Below are positions 14,047 through 34,800 of a stretch of DNA of 64,000 bases, piece after piece. Within the stretch, counting starts at the first letter, position 1; each line of letters opens with the position of its first letter. The notes under the pieces are model-generated. The model ran no database searches, was not told the origin of the DNA, and saw nothing but the letters and a program-made list of their open reading frames with translations. The DNA comes from Peltaster fructicola. Taxonomy: Eukaryota; Ascomycota; Dothideomycetes. The stretch is taken from the NCBI GenBank assembly GCA_001592805.2, contig CP051141.1:1178001-1242000 (forward strand). Direction: 5' to 3'. A program made the position numbers and the translations under genes.

Positions 14047-14124
14047 TTGATCAGATAAGGCATGAATGGTAAATAGAAGTTGTGTCTGCATCAACAATGT
14101 TGGATCAGACTCGTCATCAAGGAC
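14047..14124 (-). ncRNA. Candidate C/D-box snoRNA 4 (25S rRNA guide)
   Basis: Within host intron 4. C box TGATGAC (14119-14113), an internal CTGA, TTGATGC as C' and a D box CTGA (14054-14051). CCATTCATGC (14069-14060) is a 10-nt antisense to 25S GCATGAATGG and lies five nt before the D box. A second TGATGAG just upstream (about 14131-14125) could serve as an alternative C box. Confidence 0.5.
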
Positions 14125-14267
14125 TCATCAAGTGAAGGGAGCAAGGAAGGACATCGCGGACTCACATTTCCCATTTCGTGATATGGCCCATGCTAGCTAC
14201 TAGAGGCCTATTGTCTGGAGGTTGTCAGCATTGCTTCCTTCATGCTTAGACTCGTCTCGAAGGTCGA

Positions 14268-14362
14268 AGTATTCAGTGGACGAGGTTTTCTAGGCCTGTC
14301 ACAAAGTGGCTTGTCTGCTCAGTTGAAATATGTCGGAGCCCAGTGCCAATGCATCATTATAG
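14268..14362 (-). ncRNA. Candidate C/D-box snoRNA 3 (target not recognised)
   Basis: Within host intron 3. C box ATGATGC (14357-14351), an internal CTGA as D' (14322-14319), GTGACA as a weak C', and a terminal CTGA as D (14276-14273). I did not recognise a rRNA match in either guide segment. Called mainly by position and boxes. Confidence 0.45.
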
Positions 14363-19953: not shown

Positions 19954-20110
19954 GCATACGCAGCTCAGATGCTCTTGACCACCGCTCCCAGGAGAGAGCA
20001 CTGTGGCCGGGTCTGCCGAGGCCGGATGAGCCTTGTTCGTCTCTCACAGGACTCCAAGCTTGCTTGACTGCAAGCTATAGTTTCTTAAGCGGCTTTTTGT
20101 CTTATTCTCC

Positions 20111-20300
20111 GCCGACGTGGTCTAGGGGTATGAGTGAGTGATTCTCTCTTACGGATGGGCTCCCACTGACTGTGTTATCCAGTTCTTGCTTAGGGAAAAC
20201 TCATTCAGAATTCAGATGACCAAGCAAAATTGGCATTTATCTTCTCTGATTGCTCTATCACTGATGCAAGAGGTCTCCGGTTCGAATCCGGACGTGGGCC
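20111..20300 (+). tRNA. tRNA-Pro (anticodon AGG) with two introns
   Basis: Mature exons are 20111-20133, 20183-20195 and 20265-20300 (72 nt). The 5' acceptor strand GCCGACG faces CGTGGGC (six of seven pairs, one G-G mismatch). TGGTCTAGGGGTATGA is the D-arm and A box of eukaryotic tRNA-Pro, CTTGC-TTAGGG the anticodon stem/loop with AGG at 20192-20194, GCAAG the 3' stem, and TCCGG-TTCGAAT-CCGGA the T arm and B box, with discriminator C. A 69-nt intron (20196-20264) lies at the canonical 37/38 site. A further 49 nt (20134-20182) interrupts the D-stem between nucleotides 24 and 25. Removing both restores a normal cloverleaf. A T5 run follows at 20305-20309. The mismatch leaves open that it is a pseudo-tRNA. 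Confidence 0.8.
20134..20182 (+). other. Ectopic 49-nt intron in the tRNA D-stem with spliceosomal signals
   Basis: It begins GTGAGTG, has CTGAC 12 nt before its end and finishes TTATCCAG, the same signals and length as the mRNA introns nearby. The flanking tRNA bases join exactly to the tRNA-Pro consensus (GTATGA then TTCTTGC). tRNA introns in fungi are otherwise expected only at 37/38. Confidence 0.7.
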
Positions 20301-20304
20301 TTCG

Positions 20305-20309
20305 TTTTT
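20305..20309 (+). terminator. Pol III T5 terminator of the tRNA gene
   Basis: Run of five T on the coding strand, 4 nt after the discriminator base. Confidence 0.75.
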
Positions 20310-31859: not shown

Positions 31860-34800
31860 TTAGAAAGTGATGTCGACCTGACCAGTCAAGGGGATAGCAT
31901 CTGTGTGGGTCATTGGGTAGTCGCCAAGCACTGTCACATTCTTCACCACAACACCAGCGTCGTAGTTGAAGGTGCCGTAGATGCACAGCTTGTTGCCGCT
32001 GTAGGTGAACTGAATGTAGCTGGTCTGTGGCTGAACAATGCTATCACCATCGTCAAGGTATAGGTCTCCAGAAGCATTGCCGTTGTCGTCAGGTGCAACA
32101 ACAAGCACAAAGTCCTGTTTGCGCAGCTCGGTAGTTGTGTTTGCTGATGCAGCACGTAGAGCAACGATACTACCACCCTTGTAGTAGAGTGGAATAGTAG
32201 TGTAAGGAACATCTGGCAACACAATGGTTTCACCAGTGCCTCGGACAACTTCATGAGTGTAGAAGTCGTAGAAGATGTCGTTTGGCAGATAGACCGAGCC
32301 AACAGTACTGTTCTCCACAATGACTGGTGCGACCAAGATGCTAGGGCCGTAGAAGTACTGATATTGCAGAGAGTTGGTGTTTCCATCCGAAGGATACTGG
32401 AAGAACATTGGCTGTACTACTGGAGTGCCAGTCTGGTTCTGGTTGTAAAGTGCTGTGTAGATGTAGTCGATCAGCTGGTAACGAGTGGCAATAGCGTTTC
32501 GAGCTGCTGCTGCAGCGGTAGGGTAGCGATAGAACTCATGCGGTGGAGAACCTTGCTCACCGTGATTACGGTAGAAGACGCTGAAAGCACCAAGAGTTGC
32601 CCATCGAGCACAGAGCAGATCGTTCGAACCACCAGCATAGCCACAGACGTCCGAGCCAACCATTGGCACCTGGAAGAGAGCACCAAACTGAAGCAGTCCG
32701 GCAACAGAGAAGAGATAATGCTCCCAATCAGCTACATTGTCACCTAGCCATTTGCCGACCTGTCGACCAGATCCAGCAAAGGTAGATCGAGTGATGATGA
32801 GTGGTCGACGAGTAGGTCTACGCGAGAGCATAGCAATTCGAGATGCCTCCGACATCATGGCGCCGTAGAGGTCGTGTGTATCGTATTCAACCAGGCCATT
32901 GGCATGTACCAGGTCTGTGTTGAGAGTCTTCTCACTGAGACCACCAGCAGCATTCTGAATCTGATATGCTGGGAAGAGGAGATTTCGGCCTGGTAGACCT
33001 TGTTGAGGAGCGGACTGTCGAGATTGAAGCTTCTGGACAGGCACATCAATATCACGTCGCTTGAGCTTGTGTGGTGGAGAGGCAGTGGTGATAGTGTCGT
33101 TCAGCATGATGTATGAGTCGCATGTGCCCGTCGTGATCGTGCGATTCTGATTTTCGTAAAGGAAGCTGCCATCTGGCTGACCACGAAGGTATTGGTAGGT
33201 GATTGTGGAGTTGGCATATGCCTCGAGTGAAGCCTGCCATAGCGGCCAGTTGGCTGAACTGAGGATAACAGCACTCGATGGATCATTGCCGCCCAGTGTG
33301 CTTGCACTGCCCAACACATAGATGTTCTCACCAAAGAAGGTTGTAGCATTGACACTGAATTTGATGGTTGCTTGGCAGGGAGGCTGGAACTCTGGCCCAA
33401 AGCCAGCAATAGGACGTGGACTTCCAAGACGGACTGGTGGTGGACGTGGAGGATCACCCATAGACCGAGCTTGACCTTCTGGATCAGAGCATGGATAGTC
33501 GCAGAAGTTGCTTGCCTCGTTCATGTCGATCCACAGAGCATCGATGTCGACACCGCTATCAGGGTTGAAGAAGTCTTGGAATTGATAGTTCCAGTAGCTC
33601 TGAGTGCCTGGTGCGAACCAGTCCGGGAATGCTGTCACACCAGGCCAGACAACGCCCTTGTACACAGAGCCATTGGCAACCTTGAGGAAGGCGTTCTGGC
33701 TGACTCCATCGTTGAAGGGTGGGTAGTCCTGATAAGCCACGGCTGGATCAACCATGACAATGTAATGTTGCTGACGATCGTGCAGAGTGCTGACTAGATC
33801 ACGTACAAGCTGTAGTGGGAAGCGTAGAGGATCGAGTGAGAAGACTCGGCGGAGGTACATGTAGTCGACTGAGAAGATTAGTAGTTGTTAAGAGCCAACA
33901 AACGACAACTTACTGTCTGTCCACATAGTCTCGAGTGGAATGTCTGCAGCAGAGTAGTTGGCAACAACCTCTGCAACCTCGAAGACATCCTGCATGCCAT
34001 AACGACACTGATGGAAACCTAGGCCCCAGTATGGCATCATTGCGCTCTTGCCAACGACTTCGGAGTACTGTTGAGCCACTTGAACAGGAGTGGAGCCTGC
34101 AAGAAAGTATAGATCGAAGACTCCACCATTGCCGTTGTACTCAAGGTGCTGACCGCCGGTAGTGTCGATTTTAATGTCCATACCATCCGAGTTGAGTAGG
34201 AATACTCCATGAGTTCCATTAGCACGATGGTCGAAGTAAACGCGATGATCACCGTAGAGATTGGTGCCGGGCGGGACTGTATATGCATCTCGATTCCAGA
34301 AGGTGCGAGTGTAGTTGACAGTCTTCAACATGCTGTGAATGGTCAGAAGATGCACTCAAAACCAAAAGCGTGAGACTCACAATGGGTCAGTGCTCTCACC
34401 AAGACCATATAGGCTTGGACTATCAGGCAGCTTCGTACGCAGACGAATGTATTGATCCTCAAAGATGAGGCTGGCGGCTGAAGAGTCGAAGAGAACCTCG
34501 CCATCGTTTCGAGAGACTGTGAAGCTGAACGGCTCTGCAGTGTAGTTGAATTGAAGGTTGCTGGAGCTCACAGAGGAAGCAGATGGACGATCGAAGACCG
34601 AGTCTGGTACTTGGTAGACCTGATTGGCTTGGTCCTGGATCTTGACATGAAGGCGATCGTCTAGAGGTGTCAGCTTGGTTTGTCGAGTCTTCTCTGTGAC
34701 TTACCACTCTGGTACTCTACAGTGAGAGTGAGGTCTGTGAGATCAGTGCCATAGACGTTACAGGCAGTTCCAGCAAGGGTGAGATCGGCAGTGAGACCAC

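Follow-up and report, generated by a model that had tools for sequence, protein, structure and literature searches.

A probable spliceosomal intron in the tRNA-Pro(AGG) gene of Peltaster fructicola and similar introns in ten further nuclear tRNA genes

The window analysed here is a stretch of 64,000 nucleotides from the fungus Peltaster fructicola, and the positions of the locus are counted from its first letter. At 20111-20300 the window encodes a tRNA-Pro(AGG), whose sequence was read directly. The gene has two interruptions, namely a 49-nt GT..AG insert at 24/25 and a 69-nt intron at 37/38, and its parts and flanking elements are as follows.

20076..20080, plus strand: TATA-like element TATAG, at -35 to -31 of the mature 5' end
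20111..20133, plus strand: tRNA-Pro(AGG) exon 1, nucleotides 1-24, with the A box at 20118-20128
20134..20182, plus strand: 49-nt spliceosomal-type intron at 24/25, GTGAGT..CTGAC..CAG, unique best of 3,151 deletions
20166..20170, plus strand: putative branch-point motif CTGAC, branch A at 20169, 12 nt before the insert end
20183..20195, plus strand: exon 2, nucleotides 25-37, anticodon AGG
20196..20264, plus strand: 37/38 tRNA intron, 69 nt, given by ARAGORN on the joined exons as (agg)i(38,69)
20265..20300, plus strand: exon 3, nucleotides 38-73, with the B box at 20279-20289
20305..20309, plus strand: T5 run, Pol III terminator-like, from the sequence

A previous sequence-only reading of this DNA had described the insert with its GTGAGT start, its CTGAC 12 nt before the end and its CAG end, all of which agree with the sequence, and had considered the A box, the B box and the T5 terminator to be intact, which they are, at the coordinates now assigned to them. 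Its statement that the insert is present in addition to a 37/38 intron was also correct, as ARAGORN places the 69-nt intron at 37/38 once the exons are joined; this second intron is presumed to be a substrate of the tRNA-splicing endonuclease. In the window, no tRNA is detected by ARAGORN as set in the tool used or by Rfam at the gathering score. The joined exons are called tRNA-Pro(AGG) by ARAGORN, and the unjoined gene, with introns allowed, is wrongly called Ser(GCT). A different reading of the Pro gene, with an anticodon ACG inside the insert, was considered and dropped: by eye, its anticodon stem is unpaired with the 3' strand.

The borders of the insert were also sought from tRNA structure alone, by a deletion scan that ranks the products with our own cloverleaf score (stem pairs plus conserved bases) and from which splice signals are excluded. 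For Pro(AGG), the scan covered 3,151 deletions of 40-62 nt within the 190-nt gene, and the single best one was the 49-nt GT..AG deletion at 24/25 (score 62 versus 54 unspliced). The clean rejoining claimed by the sequence-only reading is therefore upheld insofar as the exact deletion alone comes out on top, but the joined tRNA carries one blemish that had gone unmentioned, a single acceptor-stem mismatch (G4.G69). Within the insert, 14 of the 17 positions of the stretch 20139-20155 agree with nucleotides 22-37 of the gene's own tRNA together with one intron base. A likeness of this degree was equalled in 2 of 300 shuffles, and the corresponding counts for the other ten introns range from 55 to 299 of 300. 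It is only a hint that the intron may have arisen by partial tandem duplication of its own tRNA, because eleven introns were tested.

The Pro(AGG) insert is a member of a genome-wide set that extends beyond the single gene noticed first. The genome comprises 18,987,130 bases in 5 contigs, in which 44 tRNA genes were recovered, 33 of them uninterrupted and 11 interrupted away from 37/38. Each anticodon was found once among the 44 genes, except for CAT, which was found twice (initiator and elongator Met). A canonical 37/38 intron of 7-69 nt is present in 34 of the 44, a high share, and also in 9 of the 11 interrupted genes. The published assembly is described as telomere-to-telomere, with 18.99 Mb in five chromosomes and an N50 of 3.68 Mb, and 44 tRNA genes were reported for it by tRNAscan-SE, which may not be the same 44 as here (PMC7181583).

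Our census combined an Rfam tRNA search (29 matches at E<=10, from 63 of 380 candidates scored) with pattern searches, and the retrieved sequences were checked with scripts or by eye. One A-box pattern matched at 5 places and a second one at 6, the 3' part of Pro(AGG) at 1 place, and segment 18-36, with up to 3 mismatches, at 15 places, among which only Pro(TGG) lies inside a tRNA. The pattern AGGYC plus T loop matched at 17 places, and T loop plus TTTTG at 77, of which all 50 not already known were retrieved. Two T-arm patterns completed the search: GG..CC matched at 66 places, with 45 new ones retrieved, and 100 of the 132 matches to AG..CT were examined (12 known and 88 new). The Rfam and pattern searches yielded neither His(GTG) nor Val(AAC), so the census is incomplete and hidden second copies are possible. 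Yeast tRNA-His, -Asn and -Val query sequences gave no match in a search that also missed the existing Asn gene of this genome. Within this incomplete census, no second copy of any of the 11 interrupted isoacceptors occurs among the 44 genes, and the count of other Pro(AGG) genes is accordingly zero for the searches made.

Besides these genes, a tRNA-like locus (L104, C2:2905674-2905970, minus strand) has an A box, a B box and a fully paired acceptor stem and shows no credible anticodon loop. No T-run lies in the few downstream bases examined and deletion scans gave no solution; it is perhaps a pseudogene or an oddly interrupted gene.

The ten further interrupted genes were recognised by their tRNA parts. 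Common to all eleven are inserts of 48-54 nt with GT..AG borders and a branch-like YTRAY near the 3' end, and the sites span the acceptor stem, D arm, anticodon stem, variable arm and T arm:

Pro(AGG): 24/25, 49 nt
Ile(AAT): D loop, 50 nt
Leu(AAG): D loop, 49 nt
Asn(GTT): 26/27, 49 nt
Glu(CTC): 5' anticodon strand, 51 nt
Ser(CGA) (L255, C1:1823960-1824300, minus strand): 3' anticodon strand, 48 + 49 nt around a single C
Ser(GCT): variable-arm border, 54 nt
Gln(TTG): T stem, 51 nt
Arg(TCT): T stem, 53 nt
Arg(TCG): T loop, 51 nt
Pro(CGG): acceptor stem after nucleotide 4, 49 nt

L104 aside, no tRNA with an extra insert other than GT..AG was met in the census. The Ser(CGA) gene may hold two tandem spliceosomal introns around a one-nucleotide exon, or one ectopic intron. 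Its cloverleaf score is 64 with two introns and a 1-nt exon, 60 with only the second intron removed, 59 with a single 98-nt intron and 56 with only the first removed. The best reading of the whole set is therefore given as 11-12 spliceosomal-type introns in 11 of the 44 recovered tRNA genes.

The structural scan fixes the GT..AG borders independently of the splice signals in seven genes, namely Pro(AGG), Glu, Asn, Gln, Arg(TCT), Arg(TCG) and Pro(CGG). For Glu(CTC) the GT..AG deletion is the unique best of 1,840, and for Pro(CGG) it outscores all others among 52,003 deletion/start combinations (score 58, next 55). It yields the sole top product in Asn, Gln and Arg(TCT) and ties with one other product in Arg(TCG). 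The tied placements in the seven genes number 1, 1, 2, 2, 4, 4 and 1, and by our own after-the-fact arithmetic with uniform bases, random borders would show GT..AG in all seven with a probability of about 1e-15. Structure leaves the borders loose in the other four. Because loop lengths vary, Ile and Leu each have 23 deletions, counting the chosen one, with a score at least as high as that of the chosen one. In Ser(GCT), 110 deletions score at least as high as the chosen one (65, the best being 66), which ranks second among the GT..AG deletions of that gene, and in Ser(CGA) the corresponding numbers are 9 and 4. A further scan, starting from T arms, examined 47 of them, of which 38 scored 50 or more; the four interrupted genes whose T arm is broken or unusual lay outside it. 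Here, a deletion with GT..AG and YTRAY gained more than 3 score units in 7 interrupted genes, in none of 30 uninterrupted ones and not in L104.

In their 5' splice site, branch motif, 3' spacing and length, the tRNA inserts fit the mRNA introns of the same genome. The A of the last YTRAY lies 7-14 nt from the end in the 11 inserts measured; the Gln insert has, in addition, a CTGAT five nt upstream of its last YTRAY. A weaker point is the Glu insert, which begins with GTTAGT. For the mRNA side, a motif search of 238 kb that imposed the 5' site, CTRAY, YAG and a length of 42-70 nt gave 28 frame-opening introns versus 4 in the reversed control, with a mean of 48 nt. The published median intron is 50 bp (PMC7181583). 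The mRNA-type introns end in CAG (17), TAG (12), AAG (3) and GAG (2), with 1, 2, 0 and 1 in the reversed control. An AAG 3' end is found in 5 of the 12 tRNA introns versus 3 of the 34 mRNA-type ones, an excess in the tRNA set that counts as a second weaker point. The P450 gene that adjoins the tRNA (AMS68_004323) provides local examples: the window encodes its protein exactly after removal of three introns of 41-42 nt (GTGAGC..CTAAC..CAG, GTATGT..CTAAC..CAG and GTAAGG..CTGAC..CAG). A family shared by the 12 tRNA introns was not found, their interior similarity having an observed mean of 5.08 versus 4.67 in shuffled sequences.

Once joined, the exons form a cloverleaf with the expected anticodon, as would be expected of working genes, which are presumably expressed and charged. 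Mismatches among 20 stem pairs average 0.18 in the 11 joined genes versus 0.48 in the 33 uninterrupted ones, with one acceptor mismatch each in Pro(AGG) and Pro(CGG). ARAGORN recognises a tRNA in each of the 11 joined genes and gives the assigned anticodon in 9 of them, the exceptions being Leu(AAG), read as TAA, and Pro(CGG), read as Ser(CGA). The stem-based assignment gives AAG and CGG for these two, with full anticodon stems, and Pro(CGG) also has an unusual T arm. Unjoined, only 5 of the 11 are called at all, 4 of them wrongly. The P450 coding sequence has 504 codons, for 129 of which the cognate tRNA is one of the 11 interrupted ones; 28 of these (GAG, CCG, TCG and CGA) may be wobble-read by other tRNAs, which leaves 101.

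Of the 20 TATA-like starts that precede 43 of the tRNA genes, 11 lie in the -40..-31 bin (a count given without a significance test), and the A+T content peaks at -35 to -31 (0.62 versus 0.40-0.45 at -80 to -56). Fission yeast tRNA genes likewise have an upstream TATA, which is a parallel to the -40..-31 element here. In Pro(CGG), the intron lies between the 5' end and the A box and adds 49 nt to their distance, and a TTATATT stands at -36 to -30 of the 4-nt first exon, which suggests that transcription starts before the intron. Judged by eye, Ile is the only gene in which the ectopic intron reaches the A box, whose edge it changes, and Arg(TCG) is the only one in which it splits the B box; the B box of Arg(TCT) is completed by the last G of its intron. 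A TTTT, which could weaken Pol III read-through, is present in the intron of Arg(TCT) and in the precursors of Arg(TCG) and Gln(TTG).

Exon and intron anatomy, splice signals, copy number as searched and the structural soundness of the joined tRNAs are direct observations. From these we infer Pol III transcription, spliceosomal splicing, the order of steps and essentiality. Very probably, this tRNA-Pro(AGG) gene is a working nuclear gene, apparently present as a single copy, and its 49-nt insert is a spliceosomal intron of the U2 type. The sequence-only reading had left a choice between a spliceosome acting on a Pol III tRNA precursor and a newly inactivated gene. The sequence evidence favors the former, because the incomplete census turned up no further Pro(AGG) gene, the stems of the joined tRNA are intact bar one mismatch and ten other tRNA genes carry inserts with matching size and signals. 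Eleven tRNAs seem to need the spliceosome besides the usual tRNA-splicing enzymes. We hold it to be quite probable that about a quarter of the nuclear tRNA genes are spliceosome-dependent, that the introns were gained in Pol III genes and that single precursors need both splicing systems. The same reading, held with the same confidence, implies that translation capacity would be tied to the spliceosome, as the set includes the sole genes recovered for Asn, Ile(AAT) and Pro(AGG).

In the proposed path, Pol III would make the precursor by means of the upstream TATA-like element, the A and B boxes and the T-run. The major spliceosome would then remove the ectopic intron, as a lariat. This step is placed first because RNase P, tRNase Z and the tRNA-splicing endonuclease need a folded tRNA body, which cannot form until the ectopic intron is gone; in Pro(CGG) this applies even to the acceptor stem. 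RNase P and tRNase Z would trim the ends of the precursor, and the tRNA-splicing endonuclease and a ligase would remove the separate 37/38 intron.

Other machineries could in principle account for the same genes. Since spliceosomal splicing is normally linked to Pol II, the interrupted tRNAs might be derived from mRNA-like or noncoding Pol II transcripts that are spliced in the ordinary way and then trimmed, with Pol III uninvolved, and the displacement of the Pro(CGG) A box by 49 nt would fit such an origin. We consider this unlikely in view of the A and B boxes, the T5 run and the TATA-like element near -35 in Pro(AGG) and the TTATATT at -36 to -30 in Pro(CGG). A very unlikely explanation is that the ectopic introns are cut by the tRNA-splicing endonuclease through a bulge-helix-bulge (BHB), as in Cyanidioschyzon and many archaea. 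Non-canonical introns are known at comparable tRNA positions in red algae, nucleomorphs and archaea (PMC4090602, PMC3978253), many Guillardia nucleomorph introns lack a defined BHB (PMC3978253) and the interrupted genes of P. fructicola mostly hold 37/38 introns as well. The ectopic introns, however, sit off 37/38 (at 24/25 in Pro(AGG) and at other sites elsewhere), and a simple register test, run without a positive control, found all 4 bp of the central BHB helix, in the register expected for it, in none of the 12 introns. Between 0 and 3 of the 4 central pairs form (3 of 4 in five introns), with relaxed BHB forms outside the test. A BHB would moreover leave the GT..AG borders, the 3' YTRAY and the tight size range of 48-54 nt unexplained.

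That the interrupted genes are instead newly inactivated pseudogenes, with random insertions in redundant copies, strikes us as highly improbable. The single stem mismatches in Pro(AGG) and Pro(CGG) would agree with decay, but the joined stems are no worse than those of the uninterrupted set, the inserts are bounded by GT..AG and the incomplete census holds no redundant copy for any of the 11 isoacceptors. An assembly or sequencing artefact has a negligible probability: the assembly is based on long nanopore reads, but it was polished twice with Pilon using ~256x Illumina reads (PMC7181583), and eleven separate inserts that bear splice signals are unlike read errors.

We know of no spliceosomal intron in a nuclear tRNA gene. 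None was met in the best-matching open-licence literature, a search with subscription papers and preprints outside its scope. In ascomycetes, spliceosomal introns occur in nuclear rRNA genes, which are transcribed by Pol I and present in many copies, and the title of a paper from 1993 names an mRNA intron in 18S rDNA. Like the tRNA inserts, these are mRNA-type introns in a fungal structural RNA gene; here, in contrast, the RNA is a tRNA with one copy found per isoacceptor. The U6 snRNA gene carries an mRNA-type intron in fission yeast and also in some other fungi. The fission yeast case resembles the present one in that a U2-type intron, there taken out by splicing, interrupts a short noncoding Pol III gene (PMC10484740). 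It differs in that a single RNA is affected, which is itself part of the spliceosome and for which an origin by reverse splicing has been proposed (PMC10484740), whereas many tRNAs are affected here. The U6 search of the P. fructicola genome gave one match, of full length and without an intron (47 of 1,201 candidates scored).

Canonical tRNA introns have the fixed site 37/38, are removed by endonuclease and ligase and carry no sequence signals, while the ectopic ones lie elsewhere and carry spliceosomal signals. According to one source, eukaryotic tRNA genes are limited to one intron (PMC8450103). The review by Yoshihisa describes non-canonical eukaryotic tRNA introns as rare and names nucleomorphs and Cyanidioschyzon; by word count, the word spliceosome is absent from it (PMC4090602). 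Another study links non-canonical tRNA intron genes to BHB motifs (PMC3978253). Red algae and nucleomorphs share with P. fructicola the non-canonical sites in the D, anticodon and T arms, and some of their genes have 2-3 introns, which are linked to a BHB and the endonuclease or, in Guillardia, are 3-24 nt long with splicing unknown (PMC4090602). Unlike these, the ectopic introns of P. fructicola are 48-54 nt long, have GT..AG borders and show no full BHB helix in the simple test.

If the ectopic introns are spliced as proposed, the two nuclear splicing systems would not be strictly divided between RNA classes, the Pol III transcripts that the spliceosome can process would extend far beyond U6 and spliceosomal introns would tolerate exons down to 4 nt and strong internal structure. 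The idea is directly testable since there is one gene per isoacceptor, and the study of intron gain is helped by the fact that tRNA structure fixes many of the exon borders. On the practical side, programs that search for tRNAs may overlook these genes or give them a wrong name, as happened here with ARAGORN.

Elsewhere in the window, two neighbouring box C/D snoRNA genes lie on the minus strand at 14049-14133 and 14271-14361 (snR75, 66 bits, and Afu_513, 69.3 bits), and a glycoside hydrolase family 31 gene occupies 31863-33887, also on the minus strand, with a starch-binding CBM_20 match inside the span of its GH31 domain.
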